Shown piece by piece: positions 1 through 47,277 of a DNA stretch of 64,000 nucleotides. Below the pieces are notes generated by a model, which was not told where the DNA came from, ran no database searches, and saw nothing but the letters and a program-made list of their open reading frames with translations. A program made the translations under genes and the position numbers. The stretch is from positions 37,595,570 to 37,659,569 of the forward strand of contig OX381705.1 in the NCBI GenBank assembly GCA_947462335.1. Direction: 5' to 3'. Every line of letters begins with the position of its first letter. The stretch's first letter is position 1. This DNA comes from Harmothoe impar. Lineage: Eukaryota > Annelida > Polychaeta > Phyllodocida > Polynoidae.

Positions 1-2208
1 ACCTGCACAGGCTGCGAGGGTTTCTGAACAGAAGGACCAGCACTCCAGTCTGTCTTTGTAGACGTGAAGGTAGGCCCTTTGTTTTGTGGCCGTACCTTCT
101 CCAGGACGGATGGTCGTTCCGTACTCTGAGTCCGCGCTCGCTTCGCAGCCTCATTTCCGGATTGATTTCCGCCCTGTCTCTTCGGTGGTCGCGAGGGCCG
201 GCCACTGTTCTGATACTTTACGAAGTCATCGTAAAGTTCTGCGTCCGGAACATGCAGACGGCTTTGGTCAGGGTTCACTTTATAGAACACCTTGACTTTC
301 CCCTTCTCGGTGGCTCAGAAATCAATATTGACGTTTTCCATGACTCCAGCACAGAAATCCGCCCACGCAGTTTGGTGTGCCAACTGGATCGAAGCGACAG
401 CTACCTCCAAAGCCACATTGTGCTTCAGGATCATATGCCGTATCATGTCTCCCCTGTCCTCCGTCACAGCTGAGCGAACTGTGTATGCCAAGTTTTCGCT
501 GCCCCATGAGAGGCATCCGTCTTCTGACACGTCTCAAACGGGCAGGGAGTGTTTGGAGACCACCGCCCGATCACCCAGTAGAGTGGTAGTACTTCTTCGA
601 AGCAGAACGTACTTTCTCCAGCATGTCAAAATGATACTGCTGAACCGAGCGGTCCAGCGGATCATCTTTGATCCAATCATCATTATCCGAGAAGCCATCC
701 TTGTTGGTTTCCAACGGATGCTGAGTGGAGTGACTATCTTTGGTACAGTTACCCACACACATCGGAGCAAAGTAGGCATACCCACTCGTTGCATTGGCTA
801 TGATGGTAGAATCCACCAAGGCAGTGAGCTCCTTCTCAGGCATCGTATCAATCCCCTTCAGCACTGCGTCCACAGCTTCCGGAGATTGTCCCGCATCGAG
901 AGACACCTGGCGGACAGCGGTCATCAGGACAGTGTCCCGAATCTGCTCCCTTTTCTGACGAGCACTAAGAGTCTGCTGGACTCCTACTGCCTCCTGCCGA
1001 AGTCTCTCGGCCCCACGTTCGGAGTCGGCGTTAGCCTCCTTTGTCTTTTGAGCTACGGCCTTATCAAGTTTGCCAGCCGGAGTTCTCTCCTTCCGCTTCT
1101 CACGCCGCTCCAAGACTACGTGAAACTCACTAGAGATCGGAGTCCACAGCCGTTATAGCTGTTGGCTCCTGCAGGATACCCTATCCATAGTCAGAAAGAA
1201 GCAAGGCACGCTCCTCCTTAAGTTGGATCCGTCAGAGTGGTCAGAACAGGTGGAGTAGCTGGTACCTCCGGGACAACAGCAGTGGTCACTGACAAACCAC
1301 TGCGGGCTTCGGTGCAGTGTCCAAACGGAAATGTGAACGGGCTCCTTGAGAGTTTTTACACTCTCAGTCAACCGGCTCACCGTGTTGGAGGTCTTCGGAC
1401 GACCACCCTGACCCACAAGAGCAGCTGTGGCAGTCACCGAGGGACTCTTGTCCAGATCCTGGTTTAAAGCTACTAGGTCTGTCAGTGGTCGAGAAGATAC
1501 ATTCTTAATGAATGACTTCCTGATTTCACTTTCGGATTTCTTCCGACCAGAAGCTGTCTTGGATGTAGGCTCAGCTTTCGCATCAGCGCCACCTTTCGGC
1601 TTCTTCACCTCTTTTGCTGCACTGCTAGCAGTGGAAGAGGTGACGGCATCCTTCCGGACACTGCCCTTAGTACTGGAAGTACCGGGCTTCTTCACCTTCG
1701 GGGCCTCCTGCTTCTCAACCTTCGTAGCAGGTTTCTTGCCCGGACCCGACTTCATCGTCACCTTGGAAGCAGAGGTTCGGTCCGCTGACTTCGACCTAGA
1801 CCTAGGTGTTTTCTTGGTTGCACAAGTCCGGGTAGTAGGACCAGTAGACACATCAGAGTCTTTGTCACTCGTGGCGCTCTCTTTCAAAGTCAGGCGGCAA
1901 CTCACCGACTGCTTCAAACTCGGAGAGACCCTCAGATTGGCCAGCCGAGACGGATGGTACACAATTCCCATTGCTTCGGAGTCAACTTGGGTTGACCCAA
2001 GGCGCTGGGGCAGGACAAAATCCTGATCGCTCGCCGGCGATGGGGATTTTCGGATCGGGGAGAGAGCCACATCGATGTCCATGTCGGCGAGCTTCTCTGA
2101 CAACTCATCTCCTGACCCACCAGCAGCGGTGTTCAGGAGTCCCTCGACAGCTGCTGCTATCTCGGGGTCCACAAGTGGTTCGGACTGGTGGAGCTGTTGC
2201 TCGGCCAT
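1..2208 (-). pseudogene. Degenerate Lys/Ser-rich ORF block, probably retroelement-derived
   Basis: A minus-strand open frame starts at 2,208 and runs to 1,153 (351 codons). After an acidic N-terminus its middle is very rich in Lys, Ser, Thr and Ala, like a disordered nucleic-acid-binding region. Frame appears to shift near 1,350, since the last ~60 residues become Cys/Ser-rich and lose the composition. Coding-like sequence resumes in other frames at 1,113-571 (charged, helix-like, 180 codons) and 530-315. The last is interrupted by a TGA at 315-317, after which the same frame stays open down to about position 100. I recognise no domain. The orientation matches the adjacent LTR element, so a gag-like or accessory ORF of a second decayed retroelement is the best guess. 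A host gene is less likely, because several frame breaks occur without splice sites. Confidence 0.4.
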
Positions 2209-2566
2209 CCTCCCCCTTACACGATGTCGTTTGATGACTTTTCCAATGTTTGCCTCATTTCCGACTGACTTTGGAGTCGTCCTGCCCCTACAAGTTGAGA
2301 GATATCTTAAATGTTACATGTTGTGTCCCCTGTCCATATATAGAATATTTCATTGCTATAGTTGTGGGGTCCCAGTTGCCATAGTTTTCACATGAGACAC
2401 TAATGAAAATGGACCAGCTTTAAGATCTGCTTTTGATGAGCCCACTACCCTCCACTAAATGGGTTGCCACATCCAAACCGCTTGGAATTTGGAGTCAATA
2501 TTTACAGATCTTACTCAGAAGATATAGAGCCATCATCCTACCCAATTAGGATGAATTCTGAGATGG
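2209..2566. other. Junction between two retroelement-like blocks
   Basis: No ORF or RNA gene is seen here. The stretch separates the truncated reverse transcriptase from the Lys-rich ORF block and is more AT-rich than either. No clear LTR end or target-site duplication can be read. Confidence 0.3.
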
Positions 2567-3710
2567 TCATCCGGGAGCCATTGGTCGATTATAGATGGAC
2601 TCACCCATCAGTTCGAACTGATACAGCCCAATATGACTCGTGAAAGCCGTCTTCTCCTTATCCTCCTCCTTCATCCCGGTTTGCCAATAGCCGGACTGCA
2701 AATCCAGGGTGCAGAACCATTGGTTCCCACCCAAAGAGTCCAGTGTCTCATCAATCCGGGGAAGTGGATAAGCATTTTTCTTGGTTACGCCGTTCAGACG
2801 TCTATAGTCGATACAAAACCGAATAGACCCGTCTTTCTTTGTAACCATCTGTACCGGACTGGACCAGGGACTAGTGCTAGGCACTATCACCTTCTGTTCC
2901 AGCATGGTCTTCACTTGTTCCTCAACAACTCTCTTCTTACTCAACGGCAACCATCGGTAAGGCATCTTGAATGGCTGTGCATCTCCGGTATCAATAGAAT
3001 GCAGCACTTTGTACGTTCGGCCCAAGGGCTCCCCTTCCACCTGCCATGCATCCTGATACCTTTCAACCAGCCGCCTCAGCGAACTGAAGTCCCCCGGATC
3101 CTGCAGGTCAGTCTCCGAGATCATTTTCTCCAGTCCCTCACTCAGGACTGTGGACGGATGGTCTCCCTTCATGCTGACATGACCTGGAGGTATCACTGCC
3201 TCACTGGAGAACACCTCGCCCAGAACGGTATCATTCTTCAGATACCTTGCCTCCAACCCCGGGTTGGAGACTGGCACAACGGTCCAGGCACCATCTCCCA
3301 CCAGGGTGTCCATGCCCACCAGACCAATACTCCCCAACATGGCCACATCCGGCTCCACTACTGCTTCTTCCTCTCTCCTAAGCCCCTTGCTTCGGACCAG
3401 CATGTCACACGTCTGTCTGGGAGGAATTTTCACAGTCCGGAAACTTGCCGGAGCACACACTGCTCCGCTACTCGGTATGGATGCTCTTTCCGGAGCACCC
3501 CCGTACTAGGAGCCACTCCTTCCAGGACTTTTTCTGCCAATACGGACTAGGTTCACTAGCAATCCGCCGAGCTGCAATAGTCGAGCCCCGGATCTTCGAC
3601 GTGATCGACAAACACTTTGTGATCGCTGCCGAAGCATCAGGTTCGATCCCCACGTTATGCAAACCGATCCCGGCTAAGGCGGAATTGGTATCATACAACT
3701 CCTGCATCGC
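2567..3710 (-). pseudogene. Ty3/Gypsy-like pol fragment, truncated reverse transcriptase
   Basis: The longest open frame, 3,460-2,567, encodes the spacer after protease followed by the N-terminal part of a Ty3/Gypsy reverse transcriptase. Visible landmarks are PWSSPVQMVTKKDGSIRFC, then IDYRRLN, then YPLPRIDETLDSLG and TLDLQSGYWQ, in the order expected for RT motifs 1 and 2. The frame leaves the family pattern right after GLYQFELM at about 2,603. The fingers/palm region with the catalytic YxDD box, RNase H and integrase are all missing, so the copy is dead. A further coding-like stretch lies upstream at 3,707-3,468 in another frame and may cover remnants of protease; I see no convincing catalytic DTG/DSG there. 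It lies downstream of the gag-like ORFs, as expected for one element. Confidence 0.85.
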
Positions 3711-9662: not shown

Positions 9663-11360
9663 CTACGTGTCGATGACCACATAACCAGATTTGTTAAGCA
9701 CCCTGTGACCACCATCTGATGGCAACAAAGAGGAGGTTTCATCAGAGTCTTCACTTAGATCAGTCTGAGGCTCATTTGACCTTTGTGTCGACATTAGATC
9801 GGAGGAGCGATCAATGTCATTGTCACTCACTGGTTTTACATATACCCCAGAATTGGCAACCTCATTGTGATTTGCATCACTGTTCCTGCTTCGTATTTCC
9901 TTTGCAGGAATACTGTCTGTCCTGCCAGAGCAGGTCGAGTCCGTCGAAGGCGGCAGAGATACATATGCCGAGTCAACACGAGGTACTTGTTTCTGTAGCT
10001 GTTGCGGTTTGCATAGTGCATTGTCTCTGTCTGAACCCCAAGGTGGTCCTTGGCAACTGTCCGTCAAGACATGAGGAGTAGACGCCGCTAGAGGAGCAGT
10101 ATCACCAGTCTGTACATATTCTAAATCAGTTCCTGGAGCAGAAACATACCCTCCAGTGTCATGAGCTAACCCAGCTGGTAGATTTGTAACATCGCTAAGA
10201 GGCTGATTGGCAGCCTCAGGACTTGTGACGTATCCTAATGGAGCTCCCTGATTGGCTGCCTCAGGACTCGTTACATATCCTAATGGAGCTCCCTGATTGG
10301 CTGCCTCAGGACTCGTTACATATCCTAATGGAGCTCCCTGATTGGCTGCCTCAGGACTCGTTACATATCCTAATGGAGCTCCCTGATTGGCTGCCTCAGG
10401 ACTCGTTACATATCCTAATGGAGCTCCCTGATTGGCTGCCTTAGGACTTGTTACATATCCCAAAGGAGCTCCATGATTGGCTGCCTCAGGACTTGTTACA
10501 TATCCCAAAGGAACTCCCGGATTGGTTGCCTCAGGACTCGTTACATATCCTAATGGAGCTCCATGATTGGCTGCCTCAGGACTTGTTACATATCCCAAAG
10601 GAGCTCCATGATTGGCTGCCTCAGGACTTGTTACATATCCCAAAGGAGCTCCATGATTGGCTGCCTCAGGACTTGCTACATATCCCAAAGGAGCTCCCTG
10701 ATTGGCTGCCTCTGGACTCGTGACATATCCAACATTTCCCTGATTGCCTGGTGCTTGATTCCTCAGTAATGCTGGATGGAAGTCCTGACCAACTGCGGGG
10801 GTTTGAATATATTCTTCCTGGCCTTCATTCTCAGCAATAATGTAATTCAGAATTGGCGTTTCTCCATTAGCTCTGGTATAGTCTGATATTGGACTGGAAT
10901 TAACAGAGCAATCTCTCATGGATGAATCTTCGTTCAAACTATAATCTCCTCCTGCTTGAGAGTTTCCTCCAACCATTACATAACTTGGAATTGATCCATT
11001 TGCCATGGAAGGGTTGTACTGCTGAGGTAGACTGGACATGGAGATTGACACCGTTCCGTTCACAGGTAAATTTCTGGCAGGCAGCTTTGGCTTTCCTACT
11101 GGAGAGGGAGTCACCAAACTAGCCGTGCTGTCAGAGGTCACCTGTGGCTCACTGTTGTGCATCACTCGCGCATAACCACCCATGGGCTCTGACGACTGCC
11201 GTATTCTGGCAGTACCATTGGCTTGGAGACCGTTCTTTACTAAGAAGACCTCATCAAACTCCCCCGAGTTGGACCGACGAATTGCAGGATGGATATGGTC
11301 TTGAGTCATACTGCCTCGTCCACTGTCTGCAGTGCTGTCCTGACTGTGTTGTTTCGCAAG
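9663..11360 (-). CDS. Receptor exon 14: tyrosine-rich signalling tail and stop
   Basis: Residues 714-1278 in one uninterrupted exon (acceptor CAATTTGCAG). It begins with DSTADSGRGS and is low-complexity and Ser/Asn/Pro-rich apart from regularly placed tyrosines. Outside the repeats these are SYVMV, DYSLN, DYTRA, NYIIA, EYIQT, GYVSA, EYVQT, AYVSLPP, VYVKP and, eight residues from the end, GYVVIDT. Most have Val or Ile at +1, typical of SH2 docking sites. No YxxQ (the STAT3 site of gp130) was seen. TAG stop at 9,665-9,663. Confidence 0.9.
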   Translation of the reverse strand, partial: LAKQHSQDSTADSGRGSMTQDHIHPAIRRSNSGEFDEVFLVKNGLQANGTARIRQSSEPMGGYARVMHNSEPQVTSDSTASLVTPSPVGKPKLPARNLPVNGTVSISMSSLPQQYNPSMANGSIPSYVMVGGNSQAGGDYSLNEDSSMRDCSVNSSPISDYTRANGETPILNYIIAENEGQEEYIQTPAVGQDFHPALLRNQAPGNQGNVGYVTSPEAANQGAPLGYVASPEAANHGAPLGYVTSPEAANHGAPLGYVTSPEAANHGAPLGYVTSPEATNPGVPLGYVTSPEAANHGAPLGYVTSPKAANQGAPLGYVTSPEAANQGAPLGYVTSPEAANQGAPLGYVTSPEAANQGAPLGYVTSPEAANQGAPLGYVTSPEAANQPLSDVTNLPAGLAHDTGGYVSAPGTDLEYVQTGDTAPLAASTPHVLTDSCQGPPWGSDRDNALCKPQQLQKQVPRVDSAYVSLPPSTDSTCSGRTDSIPAKEIRSRNSDANHNEVANSGVYVKPVSDNDIDRSSDLMSTQRSNEPQTDLSEDSDETSSLLPSDGGHRVLNKSGYVVIDT

Positions 11361-14300
11361 CTGCAAATTGAAATCATAATGATGAGTAAACGGTTCAGCT
11401 CAAATAATTACACTTCATTTATGAATCTGGAATCTGGGACATAGCAACATTCCATATTTAAACATCAACATGGAAATAGTTCAGACATTCTAAGGTTTAA
11501 TATAGATAGTGAAGTCTGTGTATCGGTCTTCACATGTGGTATCACACCAGACGGTATCCTAAATGTGCTACTTACTCATACTAATCAATCGATCATCTTA
11601 GGTATGGCTATATATGGCAAGGTCTATGACTACACAATACGACATAGAACTAAAATCCAAAACTACTCAAAAGCTACCGTCGCTGTGCCAGCGTGCAATT
11701 ATTATATTAAATCTATTACTTAAGGAACGTTCACAAATGACTTCATCAGCTAGGACAAGGGTACTGTATGGGCGGTATCGGGTTACTTACCAAGATTAGC
11801 AATAAGGGGGTGAGATGGGGGACGGGGTTATTCATAATTAACGTACTGGTACCAATAAGTCATTTGCGACTGTTACCTCATTAATAGATTGATTTCGAAT
11901 AAATTGTGATGGTTTCCAATAATACATACACCGGGTGAAGAATAGTCCTCAACGTTGTAGCTAAAACTATGGTTTTGATCGATAAGTTCTTTGTGGCTGG
12001 ACACGCTGAACTGAGTGGACTGGAAGAATAAATTGATTGACAAATGTGATTCTATGCAACATTCGCCTGGTTTGATTTCTAGTTGAAAGAGGCTATTGTT
12101 TTAGAAATATGATTTGTGTGAATGCTCAAATATTCAAGTGCAATAAAGGTGTGTAAAGTGTTAATCTACTAAGGCGATACGTGAGCTCATAGTTTAATAA
12201 CTACAAACCTACTTGTGCCACCAGAAAGTCTTCTGAAGGATCTTATTGTGATAAAGGAAGGCAACACATTTCCCAGCTAGGAAAAGAGTGAAGCTCGTGG
12301 TACTTACATAGGTTGTACGTGGTAGTTCCACACGTATTCCCTGCTGAAATTTGCTATAAAGCCTGTGACAGTGACTGAAATAAATGAAGAGGTATAGATC
12401 ACGGTTACCAATGTATTATGAATTTTATTTATTTATGACTTATTTACATAGTTTTAGCGGGAGGGGAATAAAAGGTATTCTTTATGTGAGATGACATGTT
12501 TATAGATAACCAATTCATCGCAGAAAACATAGACAAAAGCAGAATTTATTTATTCAAATTAGTTTTGCTAGTCTATTAAGCCATCAATAATGACCTGTTG
12601 TATCACCACATACCGTATTTACTATTTCATTCCTCATCTAATTTTAATGGGAGATTGTTGTATTAAAGCATAACACTTGCCATTTTATATCTGACATACG
12701 TTATGGATAATGCTGTTTGAATCATCTTGATATCATTGATTATGATGCATTTTTCGCCAGGATAAACTCTATACCTCAACCTCACGAAATCAAGATCATA
12801 GTACTTATACTATAATGAGGTGTTACACATAGGGTTGCACCTTCTTGGTATAATAAGTTCAAGGGTCCATACCATTAGCATCTGTTCGTGAGAATGGGTC
12901 CAGTTGAACTGTACGTATTTGCACAAGGCATTTCGAACAAGACATCAGAAAAACCTCTACATCTATATGTGACACTAGTATTACATGGTCTTATTGTTGT
13001 CCAATAGGCTAGCGATATGTTCTTGGGCTAGGGATGTACCAATGCATTTAAATGTTGTATTAGGGACCCTATTCAAGTTTAATCTTACGATTTCTTTCCA
13101 GCTGATAGTTAACAAACAGTAAAAAGAAAATTCACTCACCTTCCAAATTTGACAATTCCAAATATCACTAACAAGAGGACAACAATGCCACCCAACGTGA
13201 ACCCAACGATGATGCCTGGTGTCCACCCTGAAGAAAATCAAACACACTATTGATGTATACCGATAGGTAAAATATTTTGCACCAAGCTCAAATTCTGCAA
13301 AATTGGAATTTTTCAGAGATATCCCTATTCATTCCAGGCGCTCTTTCTAAATAACTTTACTACTACATGTATGTTTATTTTCAACTTTGTTGCAACCAGT
13401 TTACTGGATCAGAAATTTAAAATACGCATCATGAATTGGATTCGCTGGAAAGAAGAATACTCACAAGGTCCAGGAACAATAGCACACCGAGGCTCACTCT
13501 GCACGCGTGATGGACCTTTGCTGGTCAGACTGGTGACCGTTACACAATAGCGTGCTTTCTCTGTGAGCCCGGTGAGAATGGCACTTGTCTCAGAGCTGCT
13601 AATGTAGACGGTCGTCTGCTGGCTGGGATCTTCGGGACAAGCGTGCTCTGCCGTCTGGCAATAGTGCAGGGTATAGCCATAGACAAAGCCTCGGTGTGTG
13701 GAGCACTGCGTCCGTCTCCACTCCAGCACCAGCTCCCCATGCTCGGGCTCTGCTGTCTTGGATATAGCAAAGCTAGGTGGAGGTGGAGAGTCTGTAATTG
13801 TAAATCAGGTAGTGATCACACTTACATGAGTTATGTGATTCCCTGGCGGGGAAATTCCATAGAAAATATACTACGGTATTGCCTTCTGTTGTAAATCAGT
13901 TTGTTTTTGTCAATACACACTATCATGGCTTTTTGTCTCATAAATTTACTTCATATGTACATCCAGACAGACGATGGAAATCACTCTCTCAAACATTACT
14001 AGAAGTATACATTCCCCCCATTCCAAGAATGCCCTAATGAGTAATCGGTGCTTTACTAATACTTACACTGTCCATCCTGGTATGTACAGTCACTTAGCAC
14101 CATCCCACTGCTGCGCAACCCCTCTTCACGTGACACGGCAAACTCAAATTTAGTAAAGTCGTATTTTTCAGATGTGTATGCAGGGAGTGGTTGGACAACT
14201 CGATTTGTATCGGCCGGTATTGCTCTCCAGTTCATCTCAGCATCGTTGTTCAAGTGTCGCGGGGACCAGTAGAGCGTGTACCCAGTGGTAGCAGTGTCAT

Positions 14301-17300
14301 TCGGCTCCTTGTCCCAGCTGACGATCACTTCCTTCGCATTAACTGAGGCTATCACCGTGATGTTTGAGGGACCAGGTATTCCTGTAACGGTCAGTAGAAT
14401 TTATATTATACCTTATCTATAATAAAACTGCATAGTGTTTTGTATCGCAATGCTTTTAACATTCCCAATAAATTAACCGGATAAACTCTCTAGACCTTAC
14501 CCATGAAACGATTCCTTTAGAACATGTTAATCGATTTTTTAAAGTATTCTCTGTAAATAATAAATAAATTATGAGTGTAATACTAGGCTTGCCACTTTTT
14601 TTTGTGGCGATAGGTATGCTAGATTTGATAGAAACATACTTGTATTAGCAGGCTCAATCCTGACTGGTGTGGGTGGGGCATTTGATGTTCCATTGATGTT
14701 GACTGATTTGACGGTGACGTCGACCGTACAGTTCTTGGGGATCGTGACTTGGACATGGGTGGCTCTTTTCTTCCAGGAGAAACACCGCATACCACAGTGG
14801 TCAATTGGCTTGGCTTGTACCTCATATCTAAACTCGGGCCCATGCTGATCAACAACTGCGATAGCCTAAATAATATAAAAATACATAACTGTACTCATGC
14901 CTGTGTGATACTCATTTCTATTCAGTATATAAACGATAAAATGAGTCTCTTGATTGTGTTTTTTTTAAATAATAGATAAAATTTCCTGATTTGCAAATGA
15001 TTTGTCAAATGTACAGATCTTATCACAGTCAGAGTCTATAGTATACAAGCAATCGTTAAGGGCAAGGGTGCTCTAGGCAAAGAATATATTTCACGATCAC
15101 ATCAGTGATCCTTATACAAAGGGGGGGGGGGGGGCAATGAATAAACTATTGGTTGAAGTAATACTTTAAGGGGGGGAAATTGTAGATTGTTTTGCGCGAG
15201 TATGTTTCTGTCCATCTGCACCTTGGGAGGATCCTATAAGTGGGACTGTGGTTCGCATACAGCCCTTGCATTCTATGCGGTGTGAGCTGGTGGCCTGACA
15301 TAATTAAACATTTCAACCTGAATTTTATCCACATATATTACTACCTTATTGTCCGATCGCATCAACGCTTCATATACATTGTCCAGAAAATGCAGTAAAA
15401 AGGTTACTCTTTTAAGAGTTATAATTACCTTCCAGTATACGGTTACATCTATGCATGGGCTTCCCAACTTTTCAACAGAAGAGAATGCACCCTCCTTCAC
15501 ATCTGGGTGCTTTGCAGGAACTGCAACAATGAACCACATAAATATTAGTACAATGAATAATATCGGATGACCAGGGGCGTGGCAAGCAGGGGCGTGGCAA
15601 GCAGGGGCGTGGCAAGCAGTTTCAAAGGGGGGGGGGGAGGGTGGGGTCTAGCTAATTTTGACCTTTTTTGGCTTAACCTTTTAGGTTTGACCTTTATACA
15701 GTTGTGCAAAAATGAGGGGGGGGGGGGGCGTGGTCCCCCACGCCCCTGCGGATGATGTACGTATAATACAACAGATAGCCCCATTACGAATCACTCCAGA
15801 AAACGAGAAGGCATTTGCCATGAAGTGGCTATCATGTTGTTCATGGTCTCCACATGCATGTCAGATACGTACCATCAGATAATGCGAAAAAGCTGTACTC
15901 CAGTGGCGGACTCCAGTAGCCAAGGTCCTTAGTCTTCGCCTCCAGGGTAAAGCTATAGGGCTGATACGGTTTGAGACCATCCAGTCTCATCTGCAGATCC
16001 TGAAATGTTTTGGTCTGAAAAAGAAGAAAATATCATAGTTTTACACAATTAGAACATCTATTAGAAAGAGGAATTAGTTATAGTTGATAAACATATAGAT
16101 TCTCAATTCTAAATAAAGGTTGTGGTATTTTTCACTACCAGGTAAGGGGCTGCTAAGTTGTTATTACAGCAAATGATGTGAATAAGAGCAAAATGCATAG
16201 TATAGTAAATGTTTAAAAAACAAATCGCTGCATAATTACCCGGTAAGTTTTTTGTGGAATTTCATATGATTCTGATACCATGAGTGATGTTTTATCATTT
16301 CATACGTACCAGGTTTTCATATCCAATAGCCGAATGGCTAAAGTTGATCCGATAAAGGATGTCTTGGTTGCTTTCCACAGGTGGCCATTCCAATACGACT
16401 GAGGTAGAATTGAGGTGGTTTTCTGAGATTCTAGCCACTGGTGCAACTTGGACTGAAAGTCAAATATTCAGTAAAGGGTATGTAGAAATATTATATGGAA
16501 TACAAATGATCTAGATGCTGATTAGAATCCGTTCGTAAGCACAGGTTTAAAGGGTCTTATACGGGCACATCCATATTACGCATAATGTTTCTGGATGATA
16601 ATGGACAAATAACAAGGTATTTTTGGTAAGAAGTTTTTGAGCCCACAAGGTGTCATCAGGTACAACGTTGACAGGAGACCTGAAAATGTTCTGAGTCTCC
16701 CCAGCCGCAGGCATGCCCTGAGTCAATAGAATCGTTGTTCTGTTGACTCAGACGTCTCTGTATCAATTATTATACCAATGTTCATATTGATCTCTCCACC
16801 TAAACTGTGAGGGAGAAGGTTTTCTACAATGTATACCATACCATGGACGTCAATAGATTCATGACCATACCTATCTCTGATGAGTTAATTGTGTAGATGC
16901 CGTAGACACTGTCGTGTGAATAGCTGGCCTCAATCCTTATGGTGTAGACAGCATCCTTGACAAAGATCTCTGGCGGCCAGAGGCATTCTCCTGACTCCTG
17001 CTTCGAACAGTTGTTCCAAGTCCCATCAGGATCTCCACTGTAATAGAGTAAACTATGTTTAGTAAAATATCCAGTTATGAATACCAACCAATCCCATTTC
17101 AACATATTGACATCTATCTGGTTGTTAGCCTGAATAATATGGCTAAATGATAGAAACAAAGAAACATTTGCCATAACCCAAGTAATTCACACAAGTCTGG
17201 CATTTACTATCGCCCATTCAAGCCCTACAACATATCGACCGTAAATTCTTGCGCATAAGCCACCCCAAATTTGAGCCAATCCTTTAAGTCGCGGAGGCCT

Positions 17301-19239
17301 TCTGAACTAGGTGTAAAAAAAACTTGCATATTAGTCGCAGCGGAATGTTATATACATATATGTTATATGCCCACTTGTAGTCATAGTTTGAACACCGTCC
17401 GACCCACGATGCCCCCCCCCCCCCCTGACTTCCGGCCGATCCGCTAAGCTGTACTGACGATCTGATTCGCACGCTAGACGCGGCTTATACAGGATAATTT
17501 CCGGTATATATAATTGGTTTGTTAGATAATGCATATTGACAGTATTCGCTTTGACTATGCATGGCCAGATATTACACCTCATCTATTATGTCAATGACCG
17601 TTTACAGCCCACTCACCTCGTCCTCCACTCGAGATTGTCCGTAACTTTGGCTCTTATTATGGGTGTCTGGTTCTTGCCTGTCGGCGACCACTCACATCGC
17701 ATCGACGAATCACTCACGATACATTTGGTAATCTTTGGTACAACTGGTCTGACTGTAAAATGATACAGGGACAATGTAAATAGAAAACATCTTACAGGTA
17801 ACTACAAAACTCTCAGATTTGGATTTCTTGACTTTCCTCTTCGTAGAATGGTAAACTAGGATGATGGGGTACGTTGGAATGCATTATATCGGGGGTCGTC
17901 CATAAAGCAGGGGGGGGGGGGGGGGGAGAGATACAAGAGCTTCAGGGGTGGGGTCAATTTCTGGGGGAAATGTGCGCACATAATGTATGGAAGGCCTCCT
18001 GACATTAACCGTAAATTAATAATTCTATACAAGATTCCTCATGGCTAAGAATATAACTGTACTGTTGTTACTACTAAATAGTGCTCATTAAAACATTCAC
18101 AAAAGAGTGTAGGAACCTTCCCATAAGACGCCTGGCATGTTCTGTGTCAGGTATCCATTAACATACTACCGGTAATGTAAAACCCCTATCACTATACAAC
18201 AGAAAGTCCAAAAGGATATTAAAGCCATGAGATCACACAATAAGCCCATAGGTCTATATTGTTATCTATGGACTTCGTAAATATGCTGTTACCGTCTAAG
18301 TCCATTGAGTATATTATTACAACAATTGGCTTTCAGGGGGTGTCAGAAAATATCTCATATTCCATTCCATTCCTAGTAAAAATGTGAAAATACTAACGCA
18401 CGGCAGAGAAACGGCCGTTTTCACGGCCCTCAGCGGGACAGATAAACACCTCACAGACACGCAGCTAAACGGCAACTGCACTTACTGATCACTGTGACAA
18501 TCTGCATGCCCAGCAGGTTATCATTGATTTTGCAGAGTATGAACTTCTGGTTTAATTCCTTGGTGACATTGGGTAGCCGGAGCTGGGCGGTGCTGCCGTC
18601 TAGGATCGTCACATACTTGGAGTCTATAGGTTTCTGGTTTTTGAAGAAGTCGATGTCGTGCACCTTCGCAGACTGGCTTAGATCGTCCTCGTTGAGGGTA
18701 CAGTTCAGCACCAGCGTCTCACCAGGTGCCACTGCTGGGTTGTTGGGCGTCAGATCTGTCATTATAGGAAGGACGCTTTAGTATATACAAAATGTAACAG
18801 TAGAGGTATATGCACAACTGTGGTATCAGGTCTCTATATAAAGGTGTATTTGCACACCAATTACATCATAAATTAGGAATGTGTACATTGCACACGAGCA
18901 GCATGACATCATAGCTGCCGTAGTACCGTTAGTCGTGAAAGTATTTGACATTTTGACGTCTTAACACTACTAAGCTACTAGCTACTGAGAAACATTTGTA
19001 TTGATATTTTATTTCTTATTATTGCATACTTTTTGTATCGTTGCATAATTATGTTATAATCTAACATATCAATTTTGAAATATCGCCACATGCTCTATAT
19101 AAAATAAAACTCGGTGGCATGGGCGTTGATTGCATGAATTGAGACCAAGGCGAGGAGACGCACCACTCCTGATTTGAGCCGTCACGGCGGTGGTGGCAGC
19201 CAGTAGCACCGCCAGCAGCCTCACCAGCAGCACCGCCAT
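9663..19239 (-). CDS. gp130-like tall class I cytokine receptor, complete gene
   Basis: Fourteen coding exons splice, with GT-AG introns and matching phases, into 3,837 nt (1,278 residues). CDS exons on the minus strand: 19239-19164, 18755-18486, 17752-17617, 17037-16871, 16452-16310, 16014-15873, 15520-15429, 14865-14640, 14381-14067, 13791-13465, 13227-13140, 12374-12308, 12019-11930, 11360-9663. Predicted order: signal peptide 1-22; Ig-like domain 26-115; cytokine-binding region 116-311 with four cysteines, CxW and a degenerate WSxWS; three FnIII domains 312-631; membrane helix 637-657; box1-like IRVELP 674-679; DSGRGS 725-730; twelve 15-residue repeats 924-1099; stop at 9,663. Ig + cytokine-binding + 3 FnIII is the gp130/LIFR/G-CSFR plan. 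It should act at the cell surface, signalling through a JAK. Ligand and orthologue are unknown, so no gene symbol is given. Confidence 0.9.
10202..10730 (-). repeat. Coding minisatellite: twelve 45-bp (15-residue) tyrosine repeats
   Basis: Twelve head-to-tail units of 45 bp, residues about 924-1099 of the receptor. Unit consensus is GYVTSPEAANQGAPL. Tyrosine and Ser-Pro are kept in all twelve; variation is limited to T/A, E/K, A/T, Q/H/P and A/V positions. Units nearer the C-terminus are almost identical in DNA, while N-terminal units differ more, suggesting expansion from one side. The last unit is truncated after AANQ. Confidence 0.97.
11930..12019 (-). CDS. Receptor exon 13: cytoplasmic, possible box2 region
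   Basis: Residues 684-713, phases 0/0, exactly 30 codons, so it can be skipped without a frame change. Ends NVEDYSSPG, with two tyrosines. Donor is read as GGT|GTATGT, because the earlier CCCG|GTGTAT would break the frame with exon 14. Confidence 0.75.
12308..12374 (-). CDS. Receptor exon 12: juxtamembrane segment with box1-like motif
   Basis: Residues 661-683, phases 2/0. GIRVELPRTTY places an aliphatic-x-aliphatic-x-x-Pro cluster about 20 residues inside the membrane, where class I receptors bind JAK through box1. It is a weak box1: one proline, no tryptophan. A second in-frame acceptor 12 nt downstream (CACAG) could remove four residues. Donor TAT|GTAAGT. Confidence 0.7.
13140..13227 (-). 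CDS. Receptor exon 11: transmembrane helix
   Basis: Residues 632-660, phases 1/2. About 21 hydrophobic residues (637-657, IIVGFTLGGIVVLLLVIFGI) end at a lysine that marks the cytosolic side. Acceptor TTTTCTTCAG, donor GGAAG|GTGAGT. Confidence 0.88.
13465..13791 (-). CDS. Receptor exon 10: FnIII domain 6, membrane-proximal
   Basis: Residues 523-631, phases 1/1. Signatures are ELVLEWRRTQC, GFVYGYTLHYC and ILTGLTEKARYCVTVTSLT, an unmistakable FnIII domain with additional cysteines. Acceptor CAATTACAG, donor CCTT|GTGAGT. Confidence 0.88.
14067..14381 (-). CDS. Receptor exon 9: FnIII domain 5
   Basis: Residues 418-522, phases 1/1, a whole domain in one exon. EVIVSWDKEP and TTGYTLYWSP are clear FnIII B/C strand signatures. 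NIT and NDT sequons are present. Acceptor CCGTTACAG, donor CAGT|GTAAGT. Confidence 0.85.
14640..14865 (-). CDS. Receptor exon 8: second part of FnIII domain 4
   Basis: Residues 343-417, phases 0/1. Has FRYEVQAKPIDHCGMRC and CTVDVTVKSVNINGTS, i.e. FnIII strands with extra cysteines, and an NGT sequon. Acceptor TATTATTTAG, donor CAA|GTATGT. Confidence 0.8.
15429..15520 (-). CDS. Receptor exon 7: first part of FnIII domain 4
   Basis: Residues 312-342, phases 1/0. Short exon ending in CIDVTVYWK, an FnIII strand pattern. Acceptor ATTGTTGCAG, donor AAG|GTAATT. Domain 4 is the least canonical of the ectodomain. Confidence 0.75.
15572..15748. mobile_element. Short hAT-like MITE inside a receptor intron
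   Basis: 177 bp with ends CAGGGGCGTGG and CCACGCCCCTG, flanked by 8-bp direct repeats CGGATGAC and CGGATGAT (one mismatch). The left end is triplicated as a 15-bp AGGGGCGTGGCAAGC unit, and long G runs fill the interior. CAG...CTG ends with an 8-bp duplication are typical of hAT elements. It sits in the intron between receptor exons 6 and 7. Confidence 0.65.
15873..16014 (-). CDS. Receptor exon 6: second half of module 2 with WSxWS-equivalent
   Basis: Residues 265-311, phases 0/1. Ends the FnIII fold with LKPYQPYSFTLEAKT and then GYWSPPLEYSF. W298-S299-P-P-L302 occupies the WSxWS position, so the first Trp-Ser is kept and the second is lost. Acceptor TTTTTCAG, donor GATG|GTACGT. Confidence 0.85.
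16310..16452 (-). CDS. Receptor exon 5: first half of cytokine-binding module 2
   Basis: Residues 217-264, phases 1/0. FnIII strands A-C with VVLEWPPV and ILYRINFS. Acceptor GACTTTCAG, donor CTG|GTACGT. Confidence 0.85.
16871..17037 (-). CDS. Receptor exon 4: second half of cytokine-binding module 1
   Basis: Residues 161-216, phases 2/1. Carries the second cysteine pair (C171, C179, WNNCSKQESGEC) expected in module 1. NCS at 170-172 and the NSS near the 3' end are N-glycosylation sequons. Donor ATAG|GTATGG. Confidence 0.85.
17235..17500. mobile_element. Decayed relative of the CGTAAAACC MITE in a receptor intron
   Basis: Contains CCGTAAATTCTTGCGCATAAG and TTAAGTCGCGG fragments that match the better copies at 20,221 and 48,999, plus a C14 run. 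Termini cannot be placed exactly. Confidence 0.35.
17617..17752 (-). CDS. Receptor exon 3: first half of cytokine-binding module 1
   Basis: Residues 116-160, phases 1/2. Contains CIVSDSSMRCEWSPT, i.e. C-x8-C-x-W (C126, C135, W137), the hallmark of the N-terminal module of class I cytokine receptors. Acceptor TTTTACAG, donor GAG|GTGAGT. Confidence 0.88.
18486..18755 (-). CDS. Receptor exon 2: N-terminal Ig-like domain
   Basis: Residues 26-115, phases 1/1. One exon holds a whole domain with cysteines at about 44 (LVLNC) and 100 (FILCK), spaced as in an Ig fold, and an intervening FFKNQKPI strand-like segment. In gp130-family receptors this membrane-distal Ig domain helps bind the cytokine's third site. 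Acceptor ATGACAG, donor A|GTAAGT. Confidence 0.82.
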
Positions 19240-38985: not shown

Positions 38986-39221
38986 TGGGAAAAAAATCTA
39001 ATCTTTTGAATTAAAAAAAATCCATCGCCTTTTTAGGATATACATGTATAGCCGAGGATTATTACTCAGTTCAGATTATTAATTCAGTTCAGTGCAAGTT
39101 GCAAAACAAGTGACTTGCACTTTTTAACTTGACCTCATGTCCACTATGTAGGTCTTCACTATGCATGGGTCTGTCCAGAGTCCATGAATGGGATCACGCA
39201 TGGAGGGAGATTCCTCAGCTT

Positions 39222-39677
39222 TTGGCAAAAAAAAGTTCAACATCGCAAAAAAATGAAATTTCCCTAAAAACCCCCTATTTGGCGAGAAAAAAGTTCAAAA
39301 TCGCACAAAAAGTGAAATTTGCCAAAAAATAACCTATTTGGCGAGAAAAAAGTTCAAAATCGCAAAAAAGTGAAATTTGCCTCTAAACCCCCTATTTGGC
39401 GAAAAAAAGTTCAAAATCGCAAAAGAGTGAAATTTGCCTTTAAAACCCCTATTTGGCGAGAAAAAAGTTCAAAATCGCAAAAAAGTGAAATTTGCCTAAA
39501 AAACCCCTATTTGGCGAGAAAAAAGTTCAAAATTGTAAAAAAGTGAAATTTGCCTCAAACCACCTATTTGGCGAGAAAAAAGTTCAAAATCTCTAAAACT
39601 GTGAAATTTGCCTAGAAACACCCTATTGGCCGAAGAAGTTCAAAATCGCAAAAAAGGGAAATTTCCCTAAAATCACC
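39222..39677 (+). repeat. Tandem repeat, unit about 58 bp, eight copies
   Basis: Unit contains TTTGGCGAGAAAAAAGTTCA and AAAGTGAAATTTGCC. Eight AAGTTCAA occurrences are spaced 56-60 bp apart. Lysine-rich open frames across it are repeat artefacts. Confidence 0.92.
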
Positions 39678-40192
39678 CTGTGACTGTAGCATGAATGCAG
39701 ACACTCATGGACACAGACTCATGTACACCCACACAAACATATACATAGGCATGAACATGGCCTTCTCCTTCATATAGCAACCTATGGATTTCTACTTTGA
39801 TGAGACTGAATATAGCTTTCTGTTAGAAGGACTCTGATACATGGATGTCGATGTCCAGTTTTAGATATATACCCATATAGTGCACTGGAGTGCTATAATG
39901 TTGGACTGCTGTATATTATAAACATATATATATATTCCGGCCTGCTCCAGGGAGCAAGGGGAGGATTTGGGTGGGTTTGGCTGGTATGGGACAGCATCTC
40001 CTCTGATTACCATTACCAGTGAGTCCATGGCAGAATCGAAACGCCTTGGAGACATGCATTTGCGATTGAGAACAGTGCTGCACACATTGGGTAAAACATG
40101 TTACTTCATTTCTAATTAAAAAATAAATGAAGCACTGGAACATGGGAGGCTCGAGGGACTAATCATGATTATCTGGTCACTATATAGCTATT

Positions 40193-41935: not shown

Positions 41936-41983
41936 AGGGACACCAGCACGCTGCTTGTTGCTGCTACCTGCCACCAGACTACC

Positions 41984-42660
41984 CGTTCACTAAGCAGGGG
42001 GACACAGACTACCCGTCCTCTAAGCAGGGGGACACAGACTACCCGTCCTCTAAGCAGGGGGACACAGACTACCCGTCCTCTAAGCAGGGGGACACAGACT
42101 ACCCGTCCTCTAAGCAGGGGGACACAGACTACCCGTCCTCTAAGCAGGGGGACACAGACTACCCGTCCTCTAAGCAGGGGGACACAGACTACCCGTCCTC
42201 TAAGCAGGGGGACACAGACTACCCGTCCTCTAAGCAGGGGGACACAGACTACCCGTCCTCTAAGCAGGGGGACACAGACTACCCGTCCTCTAAGCAGGGG
42301 ACACACACTACCCGTCCTCTAAGCAGGGGGACACAGACTACCCGTCCTCTAAGCAGGGGACACACACTACCCGTCCTCTAAGCAGGGGGACACAGACTAC
42401 CCGTCCTCTAAGCAGGGGACACAGACTACCCGTCCTCTAAGCAGGGGACACAGACTACCCGTCCTCTAAGCAGGGGGACACAGACTACCCGTCCTCTAAG
42501 CAGGGGGACACAGACTACCCGTCCTCTAAGCAGGGGGACACAGACTACCCGTCCTCTAAGCAGGGGGACACAGACTACCCGTCCTCTAAGCAGGGGGACA
42601 CAGACTACCCGTCCTCTAAGCAGGGGGACACAGACTACCCGTCCTCTAACCGGGGGGACA
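41984..42660. repeat. 30-bp minisatellite, 23 copies
   Basis: Unit GACTACCCGTCCTCTAAGCA plus GGGGGACACA, 30 bp, with 28-29 bp variants between 42,300 and 42,470. 22 units have GTCCTCTAA and the first has GTTCACTAA. Open frame on the minus strand (repeated VPLLRGRVVC) has no start or context of a real gene. Confidence 0.97.
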
Positions 42661-46875: not shown

Positions 46876-46948
46876 CGGATCAACAGGCCAAGTCGAGTGA
46901 ACATAGAAATGAATGGTATTGGCGATTGGCATCACATGTGACCCAGGG

Positions 46949-47277
46949 GAGGGAGAGGGAGAGGGAGAGGGAGAGGAGAGGGAGAGGGAGAGGGAGAGGG
47001 AGAGGGAGAGGGAGAGGGAGAGGGAGAGGGAGAGGGAGAGGGAGAGGGAGAGGGAGAGGGAGAGGGAGAGGGAGAGGGAGAGGGGGAGGGGGAGAGGGAG
47101 AGAGAGAGGGAGGGAGGGAGGGAGGGAGGGAGGGAGGGAGGGAGGGAGGGAGGGAGGGAGGGCGGAGGGAGGGAGGGAGGGAGGGCGGAGGGAGGGAGGG
47201 AGGGAGGGAGGGAGGGAGGGAGGGAGGGAGGGAGGGAGGGAGGGAGGGAGGGAGGGAGGGAGGGAGGGAGGGAGGGA
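46949..47277. repeat. Purine microsatellites (GGGAGA)n then (GGGA)n
   Basis: About 160 bp of GGGAGA hexamers followed by about 170 bp of GGGA tetramers, almost pure purine on the plus strand, then A-rich GTTTGGAAAAAA repeats to 47,360. Long Gly/Arg/Glu or Pro/Leu/Ser frames are artefacts. Confidence 0.98.

Follow-up and report, generated by a model that had tools for sequence, protein, structure and literature searches.

Receptors of the gp130 (IL6ST) type, among them the invertebrate gp130-like receptors of the sea squirt and Drosophila (Domeless), have a common order of Ig domain, cytokine-receptor module, FN3 domains, transmembrane segment and cytoplasmic tail. A gp130-like receptor whose gene has many exons is reported in the sea squirt (accessible text of PMC1963337), and relatives named IL6R are reported in molluscs, hemichordates and echinoderms (accessible text of PMC13203501). 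The tails of the GH and prolactin receptors (GHR and PRLR) dock STAT5 through tyrosines and carry a DSGXXS phosphodegron (excerpts of PMC7444064), which in GHR is DSGRTS; the nine tail tyrosines of GHR are dispersed (excerpts of PMC7708378). The closest functional analogue of the locus described here is the substrate domain of p130Cas, a disordered region in which fifteen YxxP motifs bind SH2 and PTB domains once phosphorylated; these motifs are pseudo-repeats with a spacing that is conserved in 11 placental mammals (excerpts of PMC3983058). By genetics, the nearest system is the 48-bp VNTR of the dopamine receptor D4, a coding minisatellite of similar period that lies in a cytoplasmic loop and occurs in copy-number alleles (accessible text of PMC7031506).

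The window (the whole stretch of 64,000 nucleotides of the Harmothoe impar genome that was analysed) contains a predicted gene of this receptor type on the minus strand. The gene model was assembled from open frames and splice sites, and its exons are predicted ones throughout; it comprises 13 coding exons (19239-9663), encodes 1244 residues with no internal stops, and all introns are GT-AG introns with matching phases. The first coding exon (19164..19239) contains the start codon and, by eye, a signal peptide, and its donor is among the weaker ones. It is followed by a single exon for an N-terminal Ig-type domain (18486..18755), four exons for the cytokine-receptor module (first domain: 17617..17752, KCIVSDSSMRCEW, and 16871..17037, NNCSKQESGECLW; second domain: N-terminal half 16310..16452 and C-terminal half 15873..16014), and four exons for three FN3-type domains (the first split into 15429..15520 and 14640..14865, then 14067..14381 and, closest to the membrane, 13465..13791). 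The transmembrane exon (13140..13227, GIIVGFTLGGIVVLLLVIFGIVKFG) was recognized by eye from its hydrophobic stretch and precedes a short juxtamembrane exon (12308..12362, RLYSKFQQGIRVELPRTTY), which would be four residues longer if an alternative acceptor at 12374 were used. The large last exon (9663..11360, minus strand) encodes most of the cytoplasmic tail, including the whole tandem array, and ends with SGYVVIDT and a TAG stop. The gp130 gene likewise has a short exon after the membrane and then one long final exon. The 565 codons of the last exon contain no stop in the coding frame, whereas both remaining frames of its strand have 37 (200 single-base shuffles have a mean of 29.6). Because the exon is open in only one frame of its strand and joins in phase to the transmembrane exon and the gp130-like ectodomain, the frame of the array is beyond chance, and the earlier proposal that the array lies in a receptor tail is supported.

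The assignment to the gp130 family is based on several searches. A phmmer search of residues 1-679 against solved structures returned gp130 (interleukin-6 receptor subunit beta) as the top four entries (E 3.5e-8 to 6.5e-8), followed by the best non-gp130 entry at E 0.0073. The gp130 match consists of two stretches, the first of which aligns residues 29-359 of the query to residues 10-346 of the chain, and the best single stretch is weak (21.6 bits, E 0.00054). Pfam fn3 matches the ectodomain in three stretches (E 7.5e-20). Searched on its own, the cytokine-receptor module is matched slightly better by the receptor-type phosphatase S (E 0.001) than by IL-31 receptor alpha (E 0.002), and its first domain has no Pfam match; this domain contains four cysteines (C-x8-C and C-x7-C), all four of which align with gp130 cysteines. 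The domain order of the gp130 type is present, with the caveats that the Ig models are all under their cut-offs (Ig_3 E 0.0024, ig 0.0045, leptin-receptor Ig 0.01), that one FN3 domain is just under its cut-off (14067..14381, fn3 E 6.6e-5, 23.5 bits, cut-off 25), and that one FN3-type domain has no Pfam match alone and was placed by position and by eye (14640..14865); the FN3 domain closest to the membrane is above the curated cut-off (E 6.3e-7). The WSXWS motif of the second module domain is degenerate, as GYWSPPLEYS retains the first WS only. Because of this degenerate motif and the weak partial matches (the module alone, the sub-cut-off Ig and FN3 models and the 21.6-bit stretch) the label "gp130-like" is used, and the predicted product is best described as a protein resembling class I cytokine receptors. 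Relatives were sought with the full-length and with the tail protein; each time 7994 word-sharing candidates were scored and none reached E 0.1 or better in collections that may hold few animals. Among contigs of viral and prokaryote genomes, one scan gave 1 pattern match and another 69, none of which was confirmed as a relative.

The array is real. Repeat finding and translation identify twelve tandem 45-bp units at 10203..10742 on the minus strand, each encoding a 15-residue Y-V-[T/A]-S-P module; Tandem Repeats Finder reports 10203-10730 with a period of 45, 11.7 copies, 93% matches and 0% indels, and when read in the gene's frame it consists of exactly twelve units running from 10742 down to 10203. 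The usual unit is GAPLGYVTSPEAAN, then Q or H (final position: Gln in seven units, His in four, Pro in one), and unit 1 has a divergent beginning. Within the core, Tyr, Val, Ser and Pro are each present in 12/12 units and Thr is changed to Ala in one; outside the core, Glu to Lys, Ala to Thr and Ala to Val occur once each. Two claims of the earlier note are thereby confirmed: the in-frame minisatellite of twelve such units (placed there at 10202..10730), and the invariance of Tyr and Ser-Pro while other positions vary. At the DNA level, units 8-11 are identical to each other, as are units 3 and 4, and the twelve units are therefore not independent observations; Fisher p values on motif counts were set aside because the units are copies of one another. 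Two other interpretations of the array were rejected: a coding role of the opposite strand, since a repeat whose period is a multiple of three will have long plus-strand frames in any case, and a Pfam match to Glutenin_hmw (E 7.6e-6, 25.1 bits, cut-off 50), which reflects repeat composition.

The predicted tail of 584 residues contains 26 tyrosines, 12 within the array and 14 outside. Val or Ile follows the tyrosine at +1 in 8 of the 14 non-array tail tyrosines (background 10.4%, p 2.3e-5) and in 2/24 ectodomain tyrosines (background 14.5%), and 3/14 of the non-array tail tyrosines combine Val/Ile at +1 with Pro at +4 (YIQTP, YVSAP and YVSLP). Since Tyr-[Val/Ile] is favoured across the tail outside the array, the repeat multiplies a motif that the tail already favours, and this preference is the strongest sign that the tyrosine is functional rather than a passenger. 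A search of the tail for YXXQ, Y.N, YXXM and NPXY found none, and the STAT3-type YXXQ motif of gp130 tails is thus present at 0/26 tail tyrosines. Near the membrane, DSGRGS (residues 691-696, encoded early in the last exon) fits the DSGXXS phosphodegron, with 0.04 matches expected by chance in 404 residues, and also points to a cytokine-receptor tail.

The units were scored against the STAT, SOCS and endocytic patterns of class I receptor tails (excerpts of PMC7444064) and against the GRB2, PI3K and ITIM patterns. All twelve units fit the promiscuous STAT5 pattern Y[VLTFIC], and none (0/12) fits the STAT3, STAT1, STAT6, SOCS, endocytic, GRB2 or PI3K patterns (individually YXXQ, YXXP, YXXF, the loose SOCS pattern, endocytic YXX[LMVIF], Y.N and YXXM); the stricter YXXL was also sought in the units and is absent. 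The earlier suggestion, based on Val at +1 suiting many SH2 domains, can be refined to a loose STAT5-type pattern, as opposed to the SOCS, STAT3, GRB2, PI3K and endocytic patterns. Among the 14 tail tyrosines outside the array, 6 fit the SOCS pattern and 5 the endocytic pattern; in our reading, the array would add activating docking sites and leave inhibitory and endocytic sites single. A STAT5-class partner of the units is a guess because the STAT5 pattern is loose, fitting also 10/14 tail tyrosines outside the array.

The binding of a JAK is the weak point of a docking role. The juxtamembrane exon occupies the expected Box1 place and contains no PXP motif, its sequence GIRVELPRTTY having a single Pro. 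The stretch SGEFDEVFLVKN resembles Box2 by eye only (hydrophobic then charged residues). When 13135-11365 was scanned with filters for exons with the right phases, the only ones obtained were the juxtamembrane exon (with three acceptors) and one other at 11845-11791. The latter (11791-11845, minus strand) is a candidate alternative juxtamembrane exon of 55 bp with the same phases as 12362-12308 and a weak pyrimidine tract; it would encode STLIMNNPVPHLTPLLLIL, which has a PVP core.

The array was compared with other minisatellites in the genome (1.51 Gb, 736 contigs). Among the matches listed, the last exon has a full-length match only at its own place. The tail search, in which 75 of 1004 candidates were scored, gave at least 65 matches, one of which is the exon itself, and the other 64 listed matches all cover the array part of the query. 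Seven of these 64 loci, belonging to two places, were inspected and are minisatellites of other sequence, with units such as HVNSTELGKMGADIG and TEDKQGQPSYYMTSL, a period of 45 and copy numbers of about 25 at one place and, at the second, about 52 and 14. They have long open frames (e.g., L002, positions 1250-2376, and L005, positions 646-3645), and Tandem Repeats Finder gives them 0% indels; the minisatellite in L004-L008 repeats TEDKQGQPSYYMTSL with one Tyr-Tyr pair per unit. As neither the period of 45 nor the open frame nor the scarcity of indels is unusual in the genome, the intact frame of the array proves little. The 45-bp array has no off-length step in 11 spacings, compared with four 29-base steps in 22 spacings in a 30-bp array of the window (41975-42660), but the absence of indels was dropped as an argument for constraint because the other 45-bp arrays also have 0% indels. 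The 30-bp minisatellite has approximately 23 copies, four one-base register shifts and long open frames in several frames. Other repeats in the window include a tandem array with a 58-bp period and a long simple repeat of the GGGA type (39221-39679 and 46947-47277), and a retroelement reverse-transcriptase fragment (RVT_1 E 6.6e-10) lies at 2570-3505 on the minus strand, next to further long open frames that have no Pfam match.

The distances between units point to the history of the array. The two end units differ from their nearest twins at 12 and 4 positions and the inner units at 0-2. Isolated end units together with the identity of units 8-11 suggest that the array probably arose by recent unequal exchange, and its copy number may vary between individuals.

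Selection on the array was assessed by counting each distinct codon change once, with unit 1 included from its fifth codon on. Six nonsynonymous and seven synonymous changes were found, where 72% nonsynonymous changes are expected (one-sided p 0.042); in the two alternative frames of the strand the nonsynonymous:synonymous ratios are 9:4 and 10:3. The Tyr, Val and Pro codons of the units vary silently only and the Ser codons are invariant. As a control, a further two arrays of 45-bp period from the genome were counted and displayed no synonymous lean in 12 frames (lowest p 0.235), with 22/25 and 29/51 units used after out-of-register ones were dropped and only 6 changes in the first array. The codon counts of the 30-bp array (41975-42660) were set aside, as its copies drift out of register. 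The synonymous lean is marginal: the array contains identical units, the p value is 0.042, the opposite-strand frame that shares codon positions with the coding frame has p 0.062, and the contrast between core codons (0N:3S) and other codons (6N:4S) is not significant (0.12 by hand). The comparison of dN/dS per codon that the earlier note had proposed yields a marginal lean towards synonymous change beyond that of the two control arrays, and yields no significant difference between the core and the other codons.

We hold with modest confidence that this gp130-like receptor uses its twelve-module tail as a multivalent docking array, which would be phosphorylated by JAK and bring several SH2 proteins to one receptor, the STAT5 class being the most likely. 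A JAK kinase bound at the juxtamembrane exon would phosphorylate the unit tyrosines, the SH2 proteins would dock on them, whole units would be gained or lost by unequal exchange, and unit number would set signal strength while adding no described SOCS-docking or endocytosis patterns. The units might instead form a nearly neutral coding minisatellite, recently expanded in a disordered tail that tolerates additional linker, its tyrosines multiplied simply because there was one in the founding unit. This is possible, if somewhat unlikely. It would account for the identity of units 8-11 and the end units without a close twin, as unequal exchange yields both, and it is consistent with the 26 Tandem Repeats Finder rows in the window (some overlapping) and with a last exon that lacks a confident structure; a mean pLDDT of 36.3 is compatible with disorder, and a model from a single sequence proves little. 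The idea that a common mutational process struck an exon also gains from the other 45-bp minisatellites, which are open-framed too and reach about 25 copies at one place and about 52 and 14 at another. Against the neutral reading stand the enrichment of Tyr-[Val/Ile] in the tail outside the array and a synonymous lean in the coding frame that is missing from the two control arrays. The array stands apart from these minisatellites by its location in a receptor tail, by the occurrence of the same motif outside it and by the synonymous lean.

Two further explanations concern what the units might bind. A main role in Ser-Pro phosphorylation by proline-directed kinases, or in binding another partner, with the tyrosine secondary, is improbable: Ser-Pro is present in 12/12 units, and the array holds 12 of the 18 [S/T]P sites of the tail, but of the dispersed YIQTP, YVSAP and YVSLP sites one has Thr-Pro and none Ser-Pro. 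As these Y-[VI]-x-x-P sites mostly lack [S/T]P, the feature that they have in common with the array is the tyrosine end. Very improbable, too, is a platform for negative control, which would recruit a phosphatase or an inhibitory SH2 protein, or a decoy that would sequester the activity of the kinase or of STATs. SAYVSL and SGYVVI outside the array would fit the ITIM pattern, and in class I receptors a SOCS motif may coincide with a STAT motif (excerpts of PMC7444064), but the units themselves have Ser at +3 and none of the twelve fits the loose SOCS, ITIM or endocytic patterns. Returning to the docking array, a bolder form of it, which we regard as doubtful, is a signal gain written in a minisatellite: unequal exchange would add and remove Y-V-T-S-P modules, each an activating STAT site free of SOCS and endocytic patterns, and copy number would be an evolvable and possibly polymorphic volume knob of JAK-STAT output.

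Compared with the known systems, the receptor type itself is not new, and what appears to be new is the amplification of a tyrosine array in a receptor of the gp130 type. Like the sea squirt gene, the present gene has many exons, and gp130 is the best solved-structure match to its product. Unlike gp130, it has no YXXQ in the tail, a degenerate WSXWS and no PXP in the juxtamembrane exon, and the twelve-unit tyrosine array is absent from the accessible descriptions of the gp130-like receptors. The earlier note knew of no cytokine receptor with such an array, and searches of open-licence papers agree, as no title among the papers listed announces a tandem tyrosine array in a cytokine receptor. 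The GH and prolactin receptor tails have the DSGXXS phosphodegron in common with the present tail, which is likened to their STAT5-docking tails by pattern. The p130Cas substrate domain belongs to a docking protein rather than a receptor and has its Pro at +3, versus +4 here, and its pseudo-repeats contrast with the near-identical copies of the present units. The dopamine D4 receptor has seven transmembrane segments, and we know of no phosphotyrosine module in its VNTR. If the units dock STATs, the array would offer a ready natural setting in which to ask whether JAK-STAT output depends in strength, duration or threshold on how many docking sites there are, and whether a receptor can be tuned by unequal exchange in one mutational step. 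GHR, with nine tail tyrosines versus 26 here and no tandem array in the accessible part of its description (PMC7708378), has its tyrosines dispersed, whereas the present receptor has twelve near-identical modules in one block.
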